Below are positions 45,403-64,000 of a DNA stretch of 64,000 bases, one piece after another. Every line of letters starts with the position of its first letter. Position 1 is the stretch's first letter. The stretch is from assembly GCF_000497755.1 (NCBI RefSeq), contig NZ_AYOD01000021.1, positions 62,001-126,000 of the forward strand. The letters run 5' to 3'. This DNA comes from Aliihoeflea sp. 2WW. GTDB lineage: Bacteria > Pseudomonadota > Alphaproteobacteria > Rhizobiales > Rhizobiaceae. Under the pieces are notes generated by a model that saw nothing but the letters and a program-made list of their open reading frames with translations, was not told the DNA's origin and did not search any database. A program made the translations under genes and the position numbers.

Positions 45403-46659
45403 TCAGATGACGTTCTTTCGTTCTGGATCACATATGTACACTGGGAGCAGCTCAAGGCAGCTATCCGGCAGCCAGTTCGTATCTAGTAACGGTTCTTTAT
45501 ACCTACCCTCATCAGGACCAACATCACCAAGACCCATACAGCCCGCACCAGCAGCAACACCCCCACATGCATCTGTCTTTTTAAAAGAAACAGACACATC
45601 TATTTCTTCCGAAGAAAGCCAAAGCTCAAAGTCCTCGTCAGTCTCTTCAGCGTTCAGCGGCTTGGGTGCCTTGCGACGCGCTCTCATGCTGATGCGGTCC
45701 TCTTCAAAGGCTCTCACCTTCGCATCATGCGCACCGCGTGCATCTCCTGCACGACCAATCTCAAACCTAAGACATCTGAACCCGCCTTTCGTCTGCTTGG
45801 CCCAACCCACGTATGCGGCGATGTCTTTGTCCGGCCACCACTGGCGTTGCCTGGGCTGGTCGTCTTCGTCCAGCTGCGTCACGTCCAACCCATAGCCGTC
45901 CTTATAGTCTTGTTCGAGCCGGAACTTGAGGCAGTAGCGGATCGCCTTCTTCAAGTTCTCGTTGACGGGAAGGTTTGCCCGAAACCCCTGCACGTGCAGC
46001 TGATACGCGGTTCGCCGGCCGTCTCCGCGAAGAGCTTTGCGAAGCTCATCCAACGACACCCCGCCAAGGTCCACGATCACATGCACATGCGGAATCCAGA
46101 TCGTTCCACCCGCCATTGCCAGCACTGGCGCTCCCAACTCCCCGAGAGCCCGCTGCTTCTGCTGGCTGAGCTTGGGAAGGTCCAACGCGTCAATGCGGTC
46201 TATCTCCCAGAACCCCGTCATGTGGACGCCATTCCAGCGGCTGTCCTGGCGGCGCTTTCTTTTTAGAAGATTGATCAGGCGCCGCTTCTCGCGCTTCATG
46301 AGGTCGGCGACCAAGCCAAGTTGCGACGTCACTGGCAGCAGGATCGTGACGAATGCCAATCGCTCATTCGGCACACCCAGGAAGCTCTCGCGGATCGCCT
46401 TTTTTGTTTCCTTGCCCCGGCGCACCATCGAGCAGCGCGAGCAATGCGGGATGCGGCAGTAGCGCATGTTGTTGTGCGCATCGACCTCTCCGCACTCTCG
46501 CATCCGAGAAGACAGGTCATGACCCCAACCGAGAGCATCCATGATCCTCTCATTGTGCTCGTGCCGTCCCGGCGACAGCCACCGGATCCGTCGCAAGTCC
46601 CGTGGATCGAGTTGTCCGGTGCGGACCAGCTCCGCGCGCAATTCATCTAATGTTTTCAT
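45403..46659 (-). CDS. HUH-type single-strand endonuclease (Rep-like)
   Basis: 418 residues from ATG 46659 behind GGAGG. The core has an FVTILLP strand (about 113, motif 1), the HUH metal site in WIPHVHVIVDL (H201/H203 counting from the longer start, H196/H198 from this one) and a single Tyr in KKAIRYCLKFRLE as nucleophile candidate. The N-terminal region has a Cys cluster (MRECGEVDAH, YCRIPHCSRCSMVRRGK) that may bind zinc. The last 100 residues are poorly conserved and acidic. The layout fits rolling-circle Rep proteins of plasmids and phages. It is divergent from a small DUF6626-type gene with an 81-bp region between. Confidence 0.8.
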   Translation of the reverse strand: MKTLDELRAELVRTGQLDPRDLRRIRWLSPGRHEHNERIMDALGWGHDLSSRMRECGEVDAHNNMRYCRIPHCSRCSMVRRGKETKKAIRESFLGVPNERLAFVTILLPVTSQLGLVADLMKREKRRLINLLKRKRRQDSRWNGVHMTGFWEIDRIDALDLPKLSQQKQRALGELGAPVLAMAGGTIWIPHVHVIVDLGGVSLDELRKALRGDGRRTAYQLHVQGFRANLPVNENLKKAIRYCLKFRLEQDYKDGYGLDVTQLDEDDQPRQRQWWPDKDIAAYVGWAKQTKGGFRCLRFEIGRAGDARGAHDAKVRAFEEDRISMRARRKAPKPLNAEETDEDFELWLSSEEIDVSVSFKKTDACGGVAAGAGCMGLGDVGPDEGRYKEPLLDTNWLPDSCLELLPVYICDPERKNVI

Positions 46660-46681
46660 CGCCAATACCTCCATATTTTGC

Positions 46682-46701: not shown

Positions 46702-46740
46702 CCGGCATAAATATTAGCGTTCACGCATATGGAGGTGGCC

Positions 46741-47028
46741 ATGGACATTCGCACAATCTACGAGACCCTCAACAAGCTCGGCTATGCCAACTCGCAAGTG
46801 GAGTTTTCGCGTTTCTGGCTGGGGAGAAGTGCCAGATACTATTCGCATCTCATTGCGGCTGGCCGAGAGCCGGGTTTGGGAACTTTGGTAGCTCTTGAAT
46901 GGCGGCTCATGACGCTTCTGGACGGCCAGCCAAGGATCTGCGGATTACTGGAAGACCTCCGCAACCACATCTCCAGCCGTTCCATCACGGACCAGCCTAC
47001 CCACGGCAAACGCTGCCACTTGAACTAA
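46741..47028 (+). CDS. DUF6626-like small protein
   Basis: 95 residues from ATG 46741 behind ATATGGAGGTGGCC. The N-terminus (IYETLNKLGYANSQVEFSRFWLGRSARYYSHLIAAGREPGLGTLVALEWRL) has the form of a Cro-like helix-turn-helix with the pattern S-x2-EFS-x2-WLGRS. I recall this short family in alphaproteobacteria as DUF6626. It is opposite to the Rep gene and could regulate it. It ends one base before the convergent glycosyltransferase gene. Confidence 0.75.
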   Translation: MDIRTIYETLNKLGYANSQVEFSRFWLGRSARYYSHLIAAGREPGLGTLVALEWRLMTLLDGQPRICGLLEDLRNHISSRSITDQPTHGKRCHLN

Positions 47029-47967
47029 TCACGCCTGGTCCGGCTTCGTAACCACGACCCGTCGTGGCCGCCCGCGCAGATGCAGTTCCACGAACTTCGT
47101 CCGATCCAGGAGGTGGGAACGCTTCCCTTCGCCATGCATGCGTAGGCCTTGCGCGGCATATCGGGCCGCGATGGCTTCATTGCCCACCTTCATGACTTCC
47201 GGCGCGTGCTTGAAATGGCTGGGTCCAGAAAACTCCTTCAGCACCATGTTCTCGCAGCGATAGACTGTACAACCATTGGCAACTGCCTCGATCGCGAAAA
47301 GCGTATCTTCGCCGTGAAGGGTGTGATCGGGCGGCGGCAGCACCGCCTTACGCCCGTCCAACCGAAAATTCCTGACCACGAACAGGCTTCCCTTTAGATC
47401 GTAGTTGGCTTCGAAGACATGACGCGTCTGATAGAACGCAGGCGCTTCAGCCCAAATCTGGTTCTGTCCCGGCAGCTTCGCAGGGTTTATGGGGTAAAAC
47501 ACATCAACGTCGCCATAGGCGGCGGCACCATTCGCGGCCATTTCGCTGAAGAATGCGCCTCCGCTGTTATGGCGGGGGCTATGATAGAGAATGGCATCGT
47601 CGTCCATCATGATGCCCCAAGGCACATCACTGTCATAGAACAGGCTCAGGCAGACGATGCGGTTCTCGATTAGAGACTGGCCGGGGATCGAGATAACCCG
47701 CCCTCCTCTCGCCAAGAGAAGCTTCAATTCTCCCTCAGCGGCAACTTCTTGCGCCGTCCAACCGGAAGCCAACACCGTGACGGCAACGTCCGTCATTAAT
47801 CGCCACCAACGCAATTGCTTGCGCAGGTTGATCCTTCGGACAGCGCGATGCTCAGGGCTATCAGGAAGATAGCTGACAATATAAGCAACGAACATGCCGT
47901 TGCTGGCATAGGGCGCGTCGGGAAAGGCCACGGGAATGCGGCCATAGTTGTGGTCAATGATCGGCAT
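47029..47967 (-). CDS. GT-A-type glycosyltransferase (phage-like)
   Basis: 312 residues from ATG 47967 behind GGAGCTTCCC. The GT-A signature is LSLFYDSDVPWGIMMDDDAILY, with the metal-binding DDD, after an N-terminal Rossmann-like half (ELKLLLARGGRVISIPGQSLIENR). The acceptor side has DHTLHGEDTLFAIEAVANGC, where ED is a common catalytic motif, and CENMVLKEFSGPSHF. There is no membrane helix, so the target is in the cytosol. It lies 34 bp downstream of the TGT-like gene on the same strand, as the next gene of an operon. A nucleic acid or protein acceptor is more likely than a surface polysaccharide. The sugar donor cannot be predicted. Confidence 0.75.
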   Translation of the reverse strand: MPIIDHNYGRIPVAFPDAPYASNGMFVAYIVSYLPDSPEHRAVRRINLRKQLRWWRLMTDVAVTVLASGWTAQEVAAEGELKLLLARGGRVISIPGQSLIENRIVCLSLFYDSDVPWGIMMDDDAILYHSPRHNSGGAFFSEMAANGAAAYGDVDVFYPINPAKLPGQNQIWAEAPAFYQTRHVFEANYDLKGSLFVVRNFRLDGRKAVLPPPDHTLHGEDTLFAIEAVANGCTVYRCENMVLKEFSGPSHFKHAPEVMKVGNEAIAARYAAQGLRMHGEGKRSHLLDRTKFVELHLRGRPRRVVVTKPDQA

Positions 47968-48000
47968 GGGAAGCTCCAATTTTTGGATCGACGAGCGCTA

Positions 48001-49257
48001 TCAGCGCGCGTCGTCGTCCATGACCGCACTTCCACCCGCATAGTGCGCGAGGAAGCGCTTGTACTTGGTGATCTCGGCCATGGGCGTCGTGCTGCCGAAT
48101 ATCTTGTCAAAGCCCTCCCATGCCTTGCGAATGTGCCAAGGTGTCTGCCCACGGTCAGTGGCTTCGGCCAGTGCGAGGAGATTTGCCTCGCGAAGGGCTG
48201 TTAGCTCCTTGAAGACCTCGTGATTGGTGAGCATCTGCAGGCCCAGCGTGTCCCATCCCGTCACGCTGTTATGGTTCGCCGGATTGAAATCACCGATACG
48301 GCAGATGTCGCCAAGTGGGCTCGAAAACGGAAATCGGGCATTCCGATCTAAGCCAGACCAGTGATCTGGAAACTGATAGCGGAGGAAGTTCATCTGCTCG
48401 CGGTCGTAGGCGATGCCCGTGGTAATCTGCTTGTTCGCCTGCACGATACGGAACGCCAGAGAACTGTCGTAGCTGATCGTGATCGACGCGTTCATGTGCT
48501 TGCGCAGCGCTCTTTGGAGACCCGTCAGCATGACACCGAAACCGGGCCGGGTTGTGCCTAGAACATGGATCCACCCAAGACGGTCCAACACGCCCGCATC
48601 GCGCATCCCGATGAGCTGCTTGCACCACAACGCCAGATCAAGCTTGGTGTCGCCTGCAAGGGCAACGCCCTCGAAATGACGCTGATACGGCTCCACGGCT
48701 GCGGCCCAAATCTGAGCCTCCTTCGCATTGCGACCCTGCATCACGGTCAGCAGGCGGAGGTCATCTGACGACCGATGGTCGATTGCGAACTTGATGCTTT
48801 CAATCGTGGTATCGAGACAATCTTGAAATCTCTTGGATGTCCCGCCAGCCACGTCCAGCGAGCGCGTGGGATCATCCAAGATCAGGCCGACGTCACATTG
48901 CGCTTCAAGCCAGTTCAGTGACTTTCTGCGAAAAGCTGAGAACGGTTCGGAAAGTGCTCCGCTGATTGCCGAATAACCGCCGCTGTCCCCGATCATGATG
49001 GTGCGACGACGGTCCCGCCGAGACACGACAGTCGGGGCATTGTCATAGACGCCGAAGGCTGCGCTATAGAGGCCAGCATGATAGTGAAAGAACGGGCTTG
49101 TGCGGTCGAGATAGTTCAGTTGCGCGGCACTGCCGCCATTGGGAAGCGCGCGGTGTTGGTTGGTTGAGTTTCCTGCCGCGAACCGAGCGAAATTCGAATT
49201 CAGGGCAGGCGTGAAAACGGCATGGTCCTCCATGCCGATCGTGAGATCGATGGTCAT
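48001..49257 (-). CDS. TGT-like transglycosylase (DpdA-type, putative 7-deazaguanine inserting enzyme)
   Basis: 418 residues. The pattern follows tRNA-guanine transglycosylases: IMIGDSGGYSAISG (D91, like DSGGFQ), CDVGLILDDPTR, LLTVMQGRNAKEA (Q174), FEGVALAGDTKLDLALW (like IGGL), WIHVLGTTRPGFGVML and SITISYDSSLAFR (D264, in place of the nucleophile Asp). The typical C-x-C-x2-C zinc site of TGT is not visible. Divergent TGT homologues of this kind (DpdA) exchange guanine in DNA for preQ0/preQ1-type bases in phages and genomic islands. No preQ0 genes (queC, queD, queE, folE) and no DNA-modification partners DpdB-K are near, so the base would come from the host pathway. Assignment rests on motifs only. 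Confidence 0.7.
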   Translation of the reverse strand: MTIDLTIGMEDHAVFTPALNSNFARFAAGNSTNQHRALPNGGSAAQLNYLDRTSPFFHYHAGLYSAAFGVYDNAPTVVSRRDRRRTIMIGDSGGYSAISGALSEPFSAFRRKSLNWLEAQCDVGLILDDPTRSLDVAGGTSKRFQDCLDTTIESIKFAIDHRSSDDLRLLTVMQGRNAKEAQIWAAAVEPYQRHFEGVALAGDTKLDLALWCKQLIGMRDAGVLDRLGWIHVLGTTRPGFGVMLTGLQRALRKHMNASITISYDSSLAFRIVQANKQITTGIAYDREQMNFLRYQFPDHWSGLDRNARFPFSSPLGDICRIGDFNPANHNSVTGWDTLGLQMLTNHEVFKELTALREANLLALAEATDRGQTPWHIRKAWEGFDKIFGSTTPMAEITKYKRFLAHYAGGSAVMDDDAR

Positions 49258-49326: not shown

Positions 49327-51033
49327 CTATTCGGCGTTCTCAAAAACGCTGAACAATGACGCGTTCCTGTCGGCGGCGGTCGTACGGGACGGCACATACA
49401 CCTCGTAATTGAACCGCGAGGTGCTGAAGGCGAGCCTCAGACCAGCATTTCGATCCGCCGCGTACCGGATCGCGGAGATCACGGGAAGCGCGGCGATCAC
49501 CGAACTGACGCGCGCAAAATCCCCTTCCATCAGGGACACGGAGACAGCAGTCCCCTTTCCGCTTGCATCTCGTTCGTCGTCCTTCTTACCTGCCGAGATA
49601 TTCCAGCGGTCGCCCGAAAAATGGTGGTCCTGCTTAGCCTTTGCCTGCTTCGCCTTACCCTTGGCGACCTTGGCAATGAACTCGTTGTGACGAGACCGCC
49701 ACGTGCGTAAAGACATCTCACCTTCGCACTGCGCGTTGAACCGATCCGGATGGACGGTCAGCGGAAGGTTGCCCTGGGCAGACTGCAAAGGTTCAACCAA
49801 ACATCCGACGTTCCTATCTCGGTCAGCTGGATCGGCTGCGGCACGGGTCGTGACGACGAGACGGACCACGCCATTGGTGACGCCAGCCTCCTGCCACTCC
49901 CCCTGGAACACGTGACGCCGCTGCGGGTCTGCAATGTTGGCATCCATGATCCGCCGCTCCCGGGTGCGCAGATGACAGCGCCTGCCAAGAGGATGCGGAA
50001 AGATTTCGTCCACAGGGTCAGCAAGAACGACCACCGACGAATGCACGAGAATGGGGGAAATCGTCACAGGCTCGCCGTCTTCGAACACAATCTGCCTATG
50101 GGCGACCCGAACCCCCTTCTCTGGGTCCTCGGGATCGTCCAGTCCGTCCTTCAGAAGTTCCGTGTCCTCTTCGGCCACCATCTCGCTGGCTTCGAGCAAC
50201 TCGCCGACCTGCGCAATGACAGGATCGACGACATCGACGGACAGCAGCAGAGTATCAATCTGCGTCTGCGTTGCAGGAACAGTTGCGCGCAGGGTCGGCG
50301 CAGCGCCATCATGAGCAACAAATGCGACCTGAACGTCGTCAGCGGATCCATCGCCAAAGACAACCGCCCGCGCCTTTTCCAGATGAACCTCACGGCTCAA
50401 TTCCGGATCCAGCGCAATCTGCGCCTCGCGCTGCGGTCGCGGCTTCCTCTTTGCCTTATTGTTCTTGCGCTGCTCAGCTGCCATTTTCGTGAGACCGCCT
50501 CGCTGCTTGATGACGCCCTCCAGGGCCATCACTCCGACCGACGAGACCGGATAGCTGACCGGATCCGACTGGATCGCTGCCGTCAAATTCTCGACTGCAA
50601 GCGCAGTCCGGTCGAGGAAGGTCGCCAGATCGTGCCGCCCCGTTTGGCCGATGGTGTTGGCTCCGAAAGTGGCGGCCGTTGCAGGCATGCAAGGATGCTT
50701 GCTCTTCGGAATGGTGACGCCCGCATCCATCGCTTCGGCCTTCCAGTCGTGATCAGGCCGATAGGCGATCTCAAGAGCGAGGTAGCTTACCGCCAGACGC
50801 AGCTTCTCGTCGGAGCTGACGTAGTCATCTTGGCTTTCCTGCCCGAGATCGCGTCGTTCGTGGGCCCACTCCGCCCAATCCAAATCCTCAGGAATTACCC
50901 CCGAGATGGGTTCAATAACATCCGTGTGGCTAGCCTCCTCCTGGGGGATCTCAATAGATGTTGCTTGCTGTGCAAGTTTCGCGTCGGGTGAAGTTTCGGT
51001 TGTGGTGGCGAGTTCGGTATTTTCGGTCGACAT
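49327..51033 (-). CDS. large acidic protein of unknown function
   Basis: 568 residues. No family recognised. The first 60 residues are acidic and likely disordered (TETSPDAKLAQQATSIEIPQ). The middle has a basic Lys/Arg segment (EQRKNNKAKRKPRPQREAQI). A second basic stretch (KVAKGKAKQAKAKQDHHFSG) precedes a C-terminal domain (SLMEGDFARVSSVIAALPVISAIRYAAD and LRLAFSTSRFNYEVYVPSRT). No signal peptide or helix for a membrane. The base composition and gene size suggest a phage- or plasmid-specific protein. It starts 9 bp after a 37-bp hairpin and is the first large gene of the minus-strand run leading to the TGT-like gene. Confidence 0.65.
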   Translation of the reverse strand: MSTENTELATTTETSPDAKLAQQATSIEIPQEEASHTDVIEPISGVIPEDLDWAEWAHERRDLGQESQDDYVSSDEKLRLAVSYLALEIAYRPDHDWKAEAMDAGVTIPKSKHPCMPATAATFGANTIGQTGRHDLATFLDRTALAVENLTAAIQSDPVSYPVSSVGVMALEGVIKQRGGLTKMAAEQRKNNKAKRKPRPQREAQIALDPELSREVHLEKARAVVFGDGSADDVQVAFVAHDGAAPTLRATVPATQTQIDTLLLSVDVVDPVIAQVGELLEASEMVAEEDTELLKDGLDDPEDPEKGVRVAHRQIVFEDGEPVTISPILVHSSVVVLADPVDEIFPHPLGRRCHLRTRERRIMDANIADPQRRHVFQGEWQEAGVTNGVVRLVVTTRAAADPADRDRNVGCLVEPLQSAQGNLPLTVHPDRFNAQCEGEMSLRTWRSRHNEFIAKVAKGKAKQAKAKQDHHFSGDRWNISAGKKDDERDASGKGTAVSVSLMEGDFARVSSVIAALPVISAIRYAADRNAGLRLAFSTSRFNYEVYVPSRTTAADRNASLFSVFENAE

Positions 51034-51173: not shown

Positions 51174-52118
51174 CTATTTCGTTTGCTTCTTTACGAGTTT
51201 CGGCCGGAGATGACGATCCAGACGTGCTGCCACCTTCCCGGCCAATTCGTTGTTGAGATGGAGGTTGCGGCGGGTCCCTTGAACTGAGCTACATGCGACC
51301 ATCGCGATCACGATACGTGCGGCTCTCGTTTGAACGTACGGCTTGTTTGGAAGAGGCGGCAGCTTGTGCACAAGGTAGTGGCGCTCGGCCAATCGCAGAT
51401 CGGCAGGAGAAAACCCTTTCATCTCGTGGACAAGGGCTGCCCAGGCTGCGGTCGCCTGATCCAAACATCGCTCCGTCCATCGCTCATGCGCCTCGATGAA
51501 TTTCTTGCTTCGGGTCTCGGCCGGAACTATCCGAAGCTTTTCGTGGAAGCCGTGCAAAACGTCAAATTGCTCCCACTGCGATAGGGCACGGTACACATTG
51601 AGTGTTTCATGGGCGACCAGCGCGGGCAGAGGTTCCCCGAGATGCTGCTCCAACAAGTGCGTCACTCTGCGTTCGTGAGGCAGCATTCCGTCGTGGAGAA
51701 GTTGATCCAGCTGATCCTGCAGGCGGATCTTGCCCCAAAGGGTCGCTACAGGGCTTAATGCAACGACTGCTTCATCGTCCCAAAAAGTACTGAGCTTCGC
51801 GACAAATAGATCTTCATCGCTCATAGCCGAAATGGTTTTGACATATTCTGGAGCCGTCTGAGGCTTTTGGCCCCGCTTGCCATTGTACGCTCTCGTAGGC
51901 TTCGCGTTTCTATCCTCCACTCGTCGATTAATATGATCGCGTCGAGCCACCTGATGGAGGGCATAAAGGTGATCCAGAAGTATTGTGGCGCTGCTCTCCT
52001 GAGAACGCCTCTCCATGCCACGAAGGACGCTGCGAGATCTCAGCACCTGCCGAGCACGCGTCCCTTCAAAGACTGAGTTGAGAAGCGCGTGGGGAGACGC
52101 GGTCCGAGTGTGAGACAT
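51174..52118 (-). CDS. hypothetical helical protein
   Basis: 314 residues from ATG 52118; the frame continues to 52223 but those residues (LCWYYSRWSIFLKD) do not look real. Mostly helical and soluble, rich in His and Arg (LLEQHLGEPLPALVAHETLNVYRALSQWEQFDVLHGFHEKLRIV). A C-terminal basic tail (VAARLDRHLRPKLVKKQTK). No family recognised. It shares the strand with the acidic 568-residue gene and is separated by 141 bp. Confidence 0.6.
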   Translation of the reverse strand: MSHTRTASPHALLNSVFEGTRARQVLRSRSVLRGMERRSQESSATILLDHLYALHQVARRDHINRRVEDRNAKPTRAYNGKRGQKPQTAPEYVKTISAMSDEDLFVAKLSTFWDDEAVVALSPVATLWGKIRLQDQLDQLLHDGMLPHERRVTHLLEQHLGEPLPALVAHETLNVYRALSQWEQFDVLHGFHEKLRIVPAETRSKKFIEAHERWTERCLDQATAAWAALVHEMKGFSPADLRLAERHYLVHKLPPLPNKPYVQTRAARIVIAMVACSSVQGTRRNLHLNNELAGKVAARLDRHLRPKLVKKQTK

Positions 52119-52284
52119 GGCGGAAAGAAACCTGCAGGACAACGAAACGGGGACATCGGCAAAATATTTGCGCAGCAAATCTTTTAAAAAGATTGACCAA
52201 CGGCTGTAGTACCAACATAGCATTACGCAAAGATGGCCGATAAGCAGTCATCCATCAATTTGATAGTAAAAATGAGAGATTTTG

Positions 52285-53307
52285 ATGGCGGTATGGGTGA
52301 TAAGGGCGGGCGGCCATGGTGAGCAAGAACCTTACGCCATAGCCAATGACATGGCGGTAGTGGGATGGGATGAGGTGGGCGACCTGGCTAATCTGTTGGA
52401 GCGAAAATCTCTACTTCCCCTTCTTGTTGAAGTTTATCCAGATGAAGCTGAGAACACTCTCAAGAACTGGGAGACGCAGCTTTGGGCGTTCTCCCACCGG
52501 GTAGAACCTGGCGATCTCGTCATCTTGCCCCGTAAACGCACCTCAACCGTTGCCATTGGCCGCGCATTGGGCGCTTACCGCTTCGTTGAAGACGCCCCTT
52601 CAGGCTGCCGCCACCAGATCCCAGTGGAATGGGTCAAGAAGGATATTCCACGTCAGTCCATCGAAAGTGATCTGCGATACTCTATTGGTGGCGCCATGAC
52701 CGTGTTTCAGGTTCGACGAAACCGTGCCGAAGATCGATTCCGCGCATTTCTTGACGGACGTACCCTTGCCTTGGGCTTCGACACCAAAGCGGCCGAAGAG
52801 TTGGATGCAGAGACTGAAGAGGTTACCCACCCCGATCTTGAACGACTGGCTCTTGATCAGATCACAGATCACATCAGCCGCAAATTCCGGGGCCATGAGC
52901 TGGAGCGTCTTGTAGAAGCCGTACTGATCGCGCAGGGGTTTGTCACAGACCGCACCAACGAAGGAGCTGACGGTGGCGTCGACATCCTATGTGGACGGGG
53001 TTCGCTCGGACTGGAACCCCCTCGTATGTGTGTTCAAGTTAAATCGCAGGATAAGGCGCTGGACGTGAAGGTCGTGCGTGAGCTTCAAGGCGTGCTTAGC
53101 ACGTTCGGCGCGGATCTAGGGCTGATTGTGGCATGGGGTGGCTTTACCAGCAGCGCGGATCAGGAAGCTCGTCGGAACTTCTTCAAGATCAGGCTATGGG
53201 ATCCGGACAAGCTGATCACGCAGCTCGTTTCCGTTTACGATCGCCTACCCGAAGACATCCAGAAGGACCTTCCTCTGAAGCGGGTTTGGACGCTGGTTCA
53301 GGGCTAG
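52285..53307 (+). CDS. Mrr-type restriction endonuclease with PUA/EVE-like N-terminal domain
   Basis: 340 residues from ATG 52285 (a TTG one codon earlier is possible). The N-terminal part (WVIRAGGHGEQEPYAIANDMAVVGWDEVGDL and FSHRVEPGDLVILPRKRTSTVAIGRALG) has the form of EVE/PUA-like folds that hold a flipped-out modified base. The C-terminal Mrr_cat domain has FRGHELERLVEAVLIAQGF and the PD-(D/E)xK core GADGGVDILCGRG with CVQVKSQ (D and Q-x-K). This is a typical type IV enzyme for cutting modified DNA, or a self-guarding nuclease. It is opposite to the preceding genes and the next recombinase. Confidence 0.88.
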   Translation: MAVWVIRAGGHGEQEPYAIANDMAVVGWDEVGDLANLLERKSLLPLLVEVYPDEAENTLKNWETQLWAFSHRVEPGDLVILPRKRTSTVAIGRALGAYRFVEDAPSGCRHQIPVEWVKKDIPRQSIESDLRYSIGGAMTVFQVRRNRAEDRFRAFLDGRTLALGFDTKAAEELDAETEEVTHPDLERLALDQITDHISRKFRGHELERLVEAVLIAQGFVTDRTNEGADGGVDILCGRGSLGLEPPRMCVQVKSQDKALDVKVVRELQGVLSTFGADLGLIVAWGGFTSSADQEARRNFFKIRLWDPDKLITQLVSVYDRLPEDIQKDLPLKRVWTLVQG

Positions 53308-53310
53308 GCT

Positions 53311-53880
53311 TTAAAGCAGCTCCACAGCCGCGCGCGTGTGTCGGTCCGTAACTTCCACGTATCGTTGCGTCGTGCTCATATTTCTATGACCCGCCAAAGT
53401 CATGATCACCTTCAGGCTGACCCCAGCGTGTGCCAGCTTCGTGATGAACCAACGACGACCGCTATGGGAGCTTGCGCCATTCAAGCCAGCCTCTCGGTAC
53501 AACTTGGACATGAGCTGGCAAAGAGTATTTGCGGAAAAAGCCGTCTGTTTCTGCGTAACGAGCAGAGGCGTATTGATCATAGGTGACCTCTCCCATTCCG
53601 CTCGGAAGCGATCGATCTCTCGGCGCAGCTTCTCCCCGATGAACACAACCCGCGCATGGCCGCCCTTCGTGACCGCCGCGCTCAACCTGATCTGGTCACG
53701 TACCTGCCCATCGCTGTCGATAACATCGCCGACCCGTAGCGATGCAATCTCCCCTACCCGCAACCCAGCGAGATGCGAAAGCATGATGGCGAGCCGGTTG
53801 CGCGCGGCGTGTTTGCTCAGCGCGATCACTGCCAGGAGCCGCTTCAGTTCGACGTCGGTCAGAACCCGTGCCTGCTTCAT
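53311..53880 (-). CDS. short tyrosine recombinase (phage integrase family)
   Basis: 189 residues, about the catalytic domain only. Arg I in LAGLRVGEIASLRVGD, the central Lys in VTKGGHARVV, SSHSGRRWFITKLAHAG (H-x-x-R), TLAGHRNMSTTQRYVEV with the nucleophile Tyr. The usual N-terminal core-binding domain is missing, as in small XerC-like enzymes and invertases. It ends 3 bp from the Mrr gene, tail to tail. It may mobilise a sub-element or invert DNA; a search for flanking repeats is needed. Confidence 0.9.
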   Translation of the reverse strand: MKQARVLTDVELKRLLAVIALSKHAARNRLAIMLSHLAGLRVGEIASLRVGDVIDSDGQVRDQIRLSAAVTKGGHARVVFIGEKLRREIDRFRAEWERSPMINTPLLVTQKQTAFSANTLCQLMSKLYREAGLNGASSHSGRRWFITKLAHAGVSLKVIMTLAGHRNMSTTQRYVEVTDRHTRAAVELL

Positions 53881-62284: not shown

Positions 62285-62329
62285 ATCATAATCCTTGTGT
62301 CGGGGGTTCGAATCCCTCCTCCGCTACCA
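62285..62329 (+). repeat. attachment site: tRNA-Met-like (CAU) 3' end, copy 2
   Basis: Identical over 45 bp to 34671-34715. No intact tRNA 5' half is next to it. The downstream CCA end is directly followed by the serine recombinase gene's end on the other strand. The distance between the two copies is about 27.6 kb, the likely size of the element bounded by them. Confidence 0.85.
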
Positions 62330-63947
62330 ACGGTGCAGCCCCCACGGGTTGGCCGTCTTCCTGTAAGAACGGGACCAGTGTCGCCTCTACCTCGATCGTC
62401 AGGCGTCCATCATCATCACGATCGAGCGTGATCGACCGGATCAGTTCCCGCACGATCGGTGCAAGCTCGCCCATGTCGTCCAGCAAGATCAGCGTCATTT
62501 CGAGACGCGCCCTTGGCGGCCGGAGAGGGTCGATCGCTTTCCCCATCAGCCTATTGGCGAACGCCTTGATGGCGGTCGGGTGCAGGACGACATTGTTGCC
62601 CTTTGGCAGGCTGGCGAGTTCCTGTTTGAGGTCGTCGCGCTCCGCACCTTGTGCCTTCATCCGGGCGTCAATCGCGTCCTGATCGCCGATGCCCTTCATG
62701 AGCAAGCCGAGAAGCTGATCGTTGTCCTTGGCGATGGCAGCAAGGCGGGCCTCGATTTCAGCACGGCGGCGATGCTCGTGCGCCCCTTGTGCATGTCGGG
62801 CCTCGATATAGCGTCGGGCGTACACCTCGATCTGTTCCGGGCTGGCGAGTTCCTTCGTCAGGCTGTGAATGACCAGTTCCTCCACGTCGGCGAGATAGAA
62901 GGTCTTCGGATCGGGGCAGGCTCCGCTGTTGGTGTGCGCCGAACAGCGCAGGCGCGTCCGACCGGATTTGTCGACGCCAGCCACGGCCATGCCAGCACCG
63001 CAAGCGCCGCACTTGAGAAGACCGGACAGGAGCCGCTTGGGTCGATTGTTGCCCCGGATCGGCCCGCCCTTGGCCGTCTGCGCGCGTCCGATTATTTGAG
63101 CCTGTACGGCATCGAACAACTCATCAGGGATGATGCGCAAGTCGGGAACATCGGCTGTCTTCCAATCATTCTCGGGATTGGGGCGGGACACGCGCTTGCC
63201 GGTCGATGGGTCTTTGATCATGTGGACCTTGTTCCAGACGATGCGGCCCACATAGATCGGGTTGCGCAACATGCCCGTGCCACGGGAGGCGGAGCCGTAC
63301 AGCGCTGACGGAGCCCATAGCTTGCCGCGCGGCGGCTTCACATGCTCCGCATTCAACTGGCGACATATGGCCTTGGGGCTGGTGCCCTTCGCATAATCCT
63401 CGAAAATGCGCAGGACGATCGCAGCTTCGTCTTCCACGATCTGCGGCTTGCCGGGGTTCGTCGGGTCAGGGCGATAGCCGTAAGCTTTGCCGCCTGCCGA
63501 TAACCCCTGCTTGATCAAGCCGCTCATGCCGCGCCTGACCTTGTGGACGTTGTCCTCACGGAATAGCTGGGCCACGAGACCACGCAAGGCGACGTTGATG
63601 GTGTTCGCCTCGCCATCGTTCACGGAGACGATACGAACGCCGATAAAATCCATGGTTTTGTGCAACGTCGCCATATCGGCGATGTCACGGGACAGACGGT
63701 CAAGCGCCTCCACGACGATCACCTTGAACTGACCGTCCTTCGCGTCCTGCACCATCCGGGCGAGGTCCAGACGCCCGTGCATGGATGCGCCCGACATGGC
63801 CTTGTCGGCATAGGTGCCGGCGACGGTAAAGCCCTCGCGCTTGGCGAAGGCTTTACAGAGGTCGATCTGGTCTTCGGTCGATCGCTCGTTCTGGAGGTCG
63901 GTGCTGTAGCGGGCGTAGATGGCCGCCTTCAAAGGTTCCACATTCAT
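62286..63947 (-). CDS. large serine recombinase; C-terminus encoded by the tRNA 3' end
   Basis: 553 residues from ATG 63947 (a GTG at 63956 adds three). The N-terminal resolvase domain has AAIYARYSTD with the catalytic Ser, and EALDRLSRDIADMATLHK. The recombinase domain reads KAYGYRPDPTNPGKP, and the zinc ribbon is LKCGACGAGM with RCSAHTNSGACPDP. A coiled coil follows (IEARLAAIAKDNDQLLGLL). The last 14 residues (LVAEEGFEPPTQGL) are the antisense of the tRNA end. This is typical of a recombinase gene that has evolved to end in its own attachment site. It probably belongs to an element that continues to the right of the window. Confidence 0.92.
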   Translation of the reverse strand: MNVEPLKAAIYARYSTDLQNERSTEDQIDLCKAFAKREGFTVAGTYADKAMSGASMHGRLDLARMVQDAKDGQFKVIVVEALDRLSRDIADMATLHKTMDFIGVRIVSVNDGEANTINVALRGLVAQLFREDNVHKVRRGMSGLIKQGLSAGGKAYGYRPDPTNPGKPQIVEDEAAIVLRIFEDYAKGTSPKAICRQLNAEHVKPPRGKLWAPSALYGSASRGTGMLRNPIYVGRIVWNKVHMIKDPSTGKRVSRPNPENDWKTADVPDLRIIPDELFDAVQAQIIGRAQTAKGGPIRGNNRPKRLLSGLLKCGACGAGMAVAGVDKSGRTRLRCSAHTNSGACPDPKTFYLADVEELVIHSLTKELASPEQIEVYARRYIEARHAQGAHEHRRRAEIEARLAAIAKDNDQLLGLLMKGIGDQDAIDARMKAQGAERDDLKQELASLPKGNNVVLHPTAIKAFANRLMGKAIDPLRPPRARLEMTLILLDDMGELAPIVRELIRSITLDRDDDGRLTIEVEATLVPFLQEDGQPVGAAPLVAEEGFEPPTQGL

Positions 63948-64000
63948 GGTCGGCACGTCCTCTCCCTATCGAAGGTACTTCGCCATTGCGGCGTGATCGT

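Follow-up and report, generated by a model that had tools for sequence, protein, structure and literature searches.

Phage DNA glycosyltransferases such as T4 alpha- and beta-GT and TAGT (PF20691) put a sugar on a DNA base that has already been modified. Queuine carries hydroxyl groups, and in animal tRNA it is found glycosylated. Canonical tRNA-guanine transglycosylase (TGT; PF01702) has a zinc site of the form CxCx2C...H. Hutinet 2019 (PMC6884629) defines DpdA2, a DNA guanine transglycosylase found in Vibrio phage nt-1. Passages of a 2021 jumbo-phage survey (PMC7824862) state that phage PA5oct has a deazaguanine synthesis and incorporation system, so that the phage side of the base exchange has already been seen; these passages name neither a protein nor a glycosyltransferase with it. 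Predicted deazaguanine incorporation is named in general terms in a 2026 review (PMC13282480), and for additional deazaguanine derivatives a 2025 paper about carboxymethylcytosine (PMC12783734) refers to Cui 2023. Among the titles and abstract openings listed in searches of the open-licence PMC literature, outside which lie key works such as Cui 2023, no report of glycosylated 7-deazaguanine in DNA was found. Here we analyze two adjacent genes, P0001 and P0002, in a 64,000-nucleotide stretch of Aliihoeflea sp. 2WW DNA (contig NZ_AYOD01000021.1); the whole stretch is called the window, and the genome carrying it, the host. The two gene products are a TGT/DpdA-like transglycosylase and a predicted glycosyltransferase, as follows.

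49257-48001, minus strand: TGT/DpdA-like transglycosylase P0001, 418 amino acids (aa), from open reading frame, motifs, profile comparison and model
47029-47979, minus strand: predicted GT-A (GT2-like) glycosyltransferase P0002, from motifs and profile comparison; likely ATG start at 47967, giving 312 aa

Profile comparison and modeling indicate that P0001 is a remote homologue of TGT and DpdA, with a triosephosphate isomerase (TIM) barrel related to that of TGT. The initial annotation of this DNA had reported two open reading frames, one with the motif order of a TGT. Both frames are present on the minus strand, and P0001 has each of the named motifs: GDSGGYS at residues 90-96, MQG at 173-175, AGD at 201-203, HVLG at 231-234 and YDSS at 263-266. 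In a 15-row alignment D91, S92, G93, G94, D128, G175, H231, G234 and D264 are invariant, and in a second, broader 15-row set the same positions are invariant except G93. As had also been noted, no zinc site is visible: by eye, the four cysteines of P0001 are scattered and the CxCx2C pattern is absent. In hhalign comparisons, the P0001-family profile matched a DpdA2 profile (nt-1 and six relatives, from 70 phage records with DpdA2 relatives) with probability 97.3 and E 2.6e-11, and a profile of seven canonical TGTs (from 10 host TGT genes) with probability 92.6 and E 4.5e-7. The DpdA2 and TGT profiles matched each other with probability 95.3 and E 2.2e-8, and a negative-control comparison gave E 0.25. 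Comparison with nt-1 DpdA2 alone gave a weak match (probability 26.7, E 6.9e-4). DpdA2 was the DpdA subfamily covered. In the hhalign alignments, D91 and D264 of P0001 fall on the TGT aspartates of DSGG and FDC.

P0001 and DpdA2 families have in common the motif order DSGG / D-P / QG or HGN-QGN / H.LG / SYDS, the lack of a CxCx2C pattern (by eye) and, in phages, a location near deazaguanine synthesis genes. However, tblastn searches from three P0001-family members, returning 13 records each, never reached nt-1, and no P0001-family member was found among the best 40 of 70 records in the reverse search. Further, in nt-1 DpdA2 is flanked by FolE and a QueC-like gene, whereas members of the P0001 family have as their neighbor a glycosyltransferase-like gene, an amidoligase-like gene or the gene described below as P0003. 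With canonical TGT, P0001 shares a TIM-barrel-like model and the catalytic aspartates, but it lacks the zinc pattern and has no Pfam match at E 1, leaving the PF01702 model unmatched, and the host TGT is a separate gene. Nor did Pfam, PHROGs, PADLOC or NCBIfam give any match to P0001 beyond chance, the single NCBIfam row (E 0.094) being at chance level. Strands and helices alternate in the AlphaFold model of P0001, which places the DSGG, QG and HVLG motifs and the aspartate of SYDSS at strand ends or just past them. The top seven Foldseek rows were six TGT chains and bacterial DpdA (7ui4, rank 6, E 1.5e-4), at E 1.3e-5 to 2.1e-4. The 50 VIA-align matches listed were all TGTs (Z 13.9-15.2, 208-263 residues, root-mean-square deviation 3.5-6.1), and 859 of 999 chains reached Z 8, as barrels do. 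Thus structure prediction, named initially as a check, gave a low-confidence barrel that agrees best with TGTs and DpdA 7ui4, and together with the profile matches it upholds the TGT/DpdA-type identity first proposed. We consider it likely that P0001 exchanges guanine for a deazaguanine base.

The second gene had been placed 34 bp on, with DDD and ED motifs of a GT-A glycosyltransferase and no membrane helix. Its mechanical reading frame starts at a TTG at 47979; an ATG four codons on (47967), with GGAG ahead of it, is the likelier start and lies 33 bp past the P0001 stop. The DDD (126-128) and ED (224-225) motifs are confirmed and are retained in a phage relative with 47% identity, and no obvious membrane helix is seen by eye. 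At E 1, 0 families matched P0002 in the four libraries used for P0001. A three-sequence P0002 profile, one member of which is only 24% identical, matched a small GT2 set (A15) with probability 79 and E 1.6e-5, with DDD and ED aligned; A15 consists of three weak matches from a TAGT search, picked after the fact. An independent repeat with eight of the 15 host GT2 matches gave probability 86.4 and E 4.7e-6. The E-values for unrelated profiles were 0.57, 0.7, 0.41, 0.06 and 0.1. The two GT2 comparisons agree with the GT-A identity proposed at the outset, and P0002 is best described as putatively GT-A/GT2-like. Assignment of P0002 to TAGT (PF20691) was set aside: the hhalign E-value of 0.029 against a TAGT set (11 plus the query, from 80 loci kept of 205) is close to those of unrelated profiles (0.06-0.7). 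The Pfam TAGT match of the P0002 relative in Sinorhizobium phage Phosso (E 0.026) is below the cut-off. When PDB sequences were searched with P0001, with P0002 and with the profiles A8, A7, A5, A14 and A11, the result was nothing or rows at chance level.

We tentatively favor, at close to even chances, the explanation that P0001 and P0002 act in one pathway as a nucleic-acid modification module on a mobile element. P0001 would swap guanine for a 7-deazaguanine by the TGT reaction, with D264 as the presumed nucleophile and D91 as the general acid/base, roles carried over from TGT by analogy. P0002 would then transfer a sugar from a nucleotide-sugar, with the metal held by DDD, onto the 7-substituent. 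The base might come from salvage, queuine, preQ1 and preQ0 being examples, and P0003 may bring the transglycosylase to DNA. The acceptor here would be 7-deazaguanine, unlike those of T4 alpha- and beta-GT and TAGT. The analysis shows the homology of the two enzymes, the conservation of their catalytic residues, the phage clusters and the partnership with P0003. We infer the DNA target, the step order, the sugar, the base and the role of P0003, and likewise glycosylation by P0002; DNA rather than RNA is the most likely target because of the kinship to DpdA2 and the phage setting.

How the host would obtain the base bears on this scheme. The initial annotation saw no preQ0 synthesis genes here, and none were found among seven window proteins scanned in the four libraries, nor did a scan of 17 window proteins show deazaguanine synthesis genes. 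A canonical TGT is encoded by the host itself. Two host frames, of 562 and 399 aa, match the QueC family over about 60 of 210 positions, at E 6.9e-5 and 3.5e-4; these matches are over the 22-bit cut-off, though weak and partial. They are probably other ATPases of that superfamily, with the host lacking a true QueC. QueC matches are better in the genomes G603 (7.1e-22) and G700 (5.9e-20), and strong in G868, G1056 and G1076. Since the host seems to be without a true QueC, the base would have to be salvaged, and this is probably so in the window's host. The weak, partial QueC matches may also set the locus apart from a dpd island, as may the lack of a Dpd-named PADLOC match among the seven window proteins, a result for which PADLOC's Dpd models were not checked; DpdA itself (7ui4) is of the same fold family as P0001.

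Relatives of P0001 were found by tblastn in 13 of 50,697 phage records, namely 11 Pseudomonas records from the PA5oct group, Vibrio phage 2.275.O and Phosso, and in 1 of 72,556 plasmid records, an Azospirillum plasmid. A pattern scan of IMG/VR found 13 P0001-type loci, one of them from the window's own genome and the 12 others 29-33% identical. With P0001 alone as query, 2 of 385 genomes of the class had a relative, the window's genome included; a profile found relatives in 6 of 397 genomes at the level of the order and in 4 of 398 at that of the phylum, the window's genome counted in both. One scan of genome contigs returned a single P0001 relative, that of G287, and a scan with the PA5oct protein returned no match.

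The phage relatives adjoin DNA polymerase genes, or primase and helicase genes, in jumbo phages. PA5oct gp168 is a member of the P0001 family, and gp167, a GT-B-like protein, overlaps it by 1 bp. Relatives of gp167 (36-39% identity) lie downstream of the TGT-like gene in 11 of the 12 viral contigs, with a 4-bp overlap in 10 and a 0.9 kb gap in one; the twelfth contig ends within the TGT-like gene. FolE then occurs in 10 of 12 contigs, as does phosphomannomutase (PF03332; E 5.1e-29 and 2.4e-31 for the two matches scored), and the two contigs outside these counts end inside, or about 0.4 kb past, the TGT-like gene. The contigs are fragments; nine of the 12 were used in A4, A5 and A17, and three in A12. 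Foldseek with a gp167-type model gave mostly glycosyltransferases in its first rows (best E 1.2e-3), and profile comparison found no relation between the gp167-type protein and P0002. The best PDB row for the GT-B profile A16, SAKe6FR at E 0.00095, was set aside, no stretch passing alone. QueD was confirmed in L019, the sole contig tested for it; QueE-like frames occur in 3 of the 12 viral stretches and YhhQ-like frames in 3 of the 12, the QueE-like frame of L019 having no Pfam match at E 0.1. In PA5oct a QueE-like gene lies 2.8 kb from gp168, and the genome also has FolE. Because the phage clusters hold a GT-B-like gene, FolE, QueD, QueE and phosphomannomutase, the initial proposal of a deazaguanine followed by a sugar is indirectly backed, but the adjacency of this particular GT-A enzyme is not conserved.

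Other phages have other neighbors. In 2.275.O, the gene right after the TGT-like gene (L006:10729-11841) matches Amidoligase_2 with E 1.8e-4, at 21.9 against a 22-bit cut-off, and is followed by QueF, a preQ0-transporter-like gene, QueC, a glutamine-amidotransferase-like gene (subthreshold) and FolE; the putative amidoligase perhaps decorates the deazaguanine with an amino acid. In Phosso the gene next to the TGT-like gene is annotated as a primase. No phosphomannomutase match was found in PA5oct, 2.275.O or Phosso. Given these differing neighbors, the TGT-like enzyme may feed various decorations, or none. Two long frames inside the phage cluster, L014:10425-14015 (1196 aa) and L019:14292-17855 (1187 aa), have by eye a subtilisin-like SGTSMA motif, and L019:18832-19395, between FolE and QueD, has a weak match to 2OG-Fe(II) oxygenase (E 0.028, below the cut-off).

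In bacteria, the usual partner of the TGT-like gene is a different one.

49327-51033, minus strand: P0003, 568 aa, directly upstream of P0001; the usual partner in bacteria

The bacterial loci number 11, from the window, nine genomes and one plasmid, and eight of them have a P0003-like partner, one of these broken. By BLAST, a P0003-like frame lies directly upstream in the window, G603, G685, G700 and G750, and upstream frames of this kind are also present in G1056 (BLAST 7.8e-4; hhalign 6.7e-10) and G1076 (hhalign 2.4e-10). In G623 (L039) the TGT-like and P0003-like genes are both fragmented, which shows decay of the module in at least this genome. The upstream frame of G287, 247 aa, gave 0.0063 against P0003 by hhalign. 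For the Azospirillum plasmid the downstream neighbor alone was compared with P0003 (0.16), and G868, with a partial TGT-like match, has no P0003 relative by BLAST. The C-terminal region of P0003 resembles the family of PA5oct gp170 and 2.275.O gp465 (E 5.5e-5, probability 66, 106 columns; 3.8e-4 with fewer sequences), six controls giving 0.11-0.94. In PA5oct, gp170 is two genes ahead of gp168; one phage member of the family is L005:7912-8658. In 8 of 12 viral stretches a member of the gp170 family occurs about 4.8-7.4 kb upstream; the remaining four stretches extend at most 5.6 kb upstream. Five of the eight stretches with the family were used for its profile, A8. This position and the C-terminal likeness suggest an old partnership of the P0003-type and TGT-like proteins. 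By eye the P0003 C-terminus and A8 look like a sliding clamp, an idea that was rejected: comparison with eight bacterial DnaN gave 0.39 for A8, 0.45 for A7 and 0.087 for the C-terminal set, and hhalign against one gp45 gave 0.33, 0.44 and 0.31, no support.

A wider claim, which we hold possible though doubtful, is that a two-enzyme route to glycosylated 7-deazaguanine in DNA exists in at least two assemblies with unrelated glycosyltransferases, P0003 or its phage counterpart being a dedicated partner. One form would have the GT-A enzyme, in the bacterial element and a jumbo phage; the other would have the GT-B enzyme, in the PA5oct group and in marine phages, which carry a phosphomannomutase of their own.

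The genes around P0001, P0002 and P0003 are these.

45403-46674, minus strand: possible replication protein of the HUH type (HVHVIVDL motif seen by eye; Pfam without a match at E 1)
46729-47028, plus strand: DUF6626 protein P0006; 4 of 9 other bacterial loci hold weak relatives (E 5e-4 to 0.003)
51174-52223, minus strand: uncharacterized P0004, further upstream; weak matches, best BrxB at E 0.0029
52282-53307, plus strand: Mrr-type nuclease P0007 (PADLOC candidate defense family PDC-S02, E 1.7e-131; Pfam Mrr_cat, 4.4e-26)
53311-53880, minus strand: short tyrosine recombinase, 189 aa (Pfam 4.2e-25); likely mobility gene
62286-63956, minus strand: large serine recombinase with Resolvase and Recombinase domains

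Five of the 10 other bacterial loci have a recombinase about 64% identical to the short one, and a sixth has one with 40% identity, while in those six loci the identity of the TGT-like protein to P0001 ranges from 53% down to 27%. This points to a shared mobility gene and suggests that the element is separate from what seems to be a prophage on its right. The large serine recombinase is perhaps the integrase of that neighboring prophage. To the right of the window (L190) are several long minus-strand frames that by eye are like phage tail and head genes. An IMG/VR copy of the P0001/P0002 pair with 100% identity, from the same genome or one like it, is on a provirus contig. None of the 10 other bacterial loci holds a P0004 relative at E 1e-5. 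The P0003 partner, the mobile-element setting and the host's seeming lack of a true QueC were all missed by the initial annotation.

Several points weigh against the module reading. The P0001 model is poor (mean predicted local distance difference test score, pLDDT, 51.9; predicted template modeling score 0.53), and unrelated TIM barrels come close behind in Foldseek (E 5e-4, 9e-4 and above). On the phage side, the gp167-type model is weak (pLDDT 53.5), and the three gp167-type proteins tested match Pfam Glycos_transf_1 below the cut-off (E 0.0011-0.062). QueC matches are absent from all 12 viral contigs, which are fragments, and from PA5oct, so the base inserted there may be an earlier intermediate. 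Beside the window genes no base-synthesis or sugar-supply gene was seen. The genome search did not bear out the conserved adjacency that had been anticipated: a P0002 match is absent from all nine other bacterial genomes with a TGT-like gene, and from PA5oct, 2.275.O and the Azospirillum plasmid. The one tblastn match to P0002 in 50,697 phage records is in Phosso, itself among the 13 records with a TGT-like gene; this relative, 46-50% identical, is at 223 kb and the TGT-like gene at 323 kb, about 100 kb apart. This co-occurrence speaks for the module, although the large size of both genomes makes the coincidence weaker. Further, Phosso has no annotated deazaguanine gene in the two stretches viewed and no QueC match genome-wide. 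A distant P0002 relative in phage DSL-LC06 (L080:5477-6418; 25% identity to the Phosso protein, E 2e-4) has neighbors named lipopolysaccharide (LPS) heptosyltransferase, FkbM methyltransferase, KpsC-like and sialyltransferase, and tblastn of the phage records found no TGT-like match in DSL-LC06. This context speaks for a surface-sugar function in DSL-LC06, and the P0002 family may serve surface sugars. Three scans of viral contigs for more P0002 relatives gave the window's own genome or nothing. Because P0002 is missing elsewhere and the two genes are so far apart in Phosso, what is conserved is not this exact pair but its type, a TGT-like gene with a glycosyltransferase-like gene.

Some of these observations fit a second explanation, in which P0001 puts a deazaguanine in DNA and P0002 is an accidental neighbor, perhaps phage-derived, that glycosylates, e.g., surface polysaccharide. 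The absence of the GT-A gene from the other bacterial loci, the predominance of P0003 as the partner in them, and the LPS- and capsule-type surroundings in DSL-LC06 all argue for chance adjacency. However, P0001 and P0002 are on the same strand with 33 bp between them, the sole close P0002 relative shares a genome with a rare TGT-like gene, and the phage P0001 relatives have a different glycosyltransferase-like gene in that position; on balance, we hold it less probable than the module reading that P0002 is a bystander. Less probable still is a tRNA pathway, with P0001 as a diverged transglycosylase of tRNA and P0002 as a counterpart of the queuosine glycosyltransferases known from animals. 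Glycosylated queuosine does occur in animal tRNA, and the P0001 model has the TGT fold, but the host already has a canonical TGT, DpdA2, which acts on phage DNA, is closer in profile to P0001 than TGT is, the zinc-site pattern is missing by eye, and the jumbo-phage relatives lie beside replication genes. The PADLOC candidate and Mrr_cat matches of P0007 raise the further idea of a Dpd-like restriction-modification island, with P0001 and P0002 marking DNA and the nuclease restricting by the mark. That nuclease is encoded on the strand opposite P0001, the 10 other bacterial loci compared contain no relative of it at E 1e-5, and PADLOC gave no match at E 1 for P0001, P0002 or P0003, which makes such an island the least probable of these explanations.

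In sum, the module reading of P0001 and P0002 as successive enzymes of one pathway is the one we tentatively retain. If the reading is true, it would offer an enzyme family that in P0001 escaped the Pfam, PHROGs, PADLOC and NCBIfam models, apart from chance matches. It would also join two anti-restriction strategies, base exchange and base glycosylation, and would give a testable prediction for phages that have already been isolated, namely PA5oct, Paride and their relatives.

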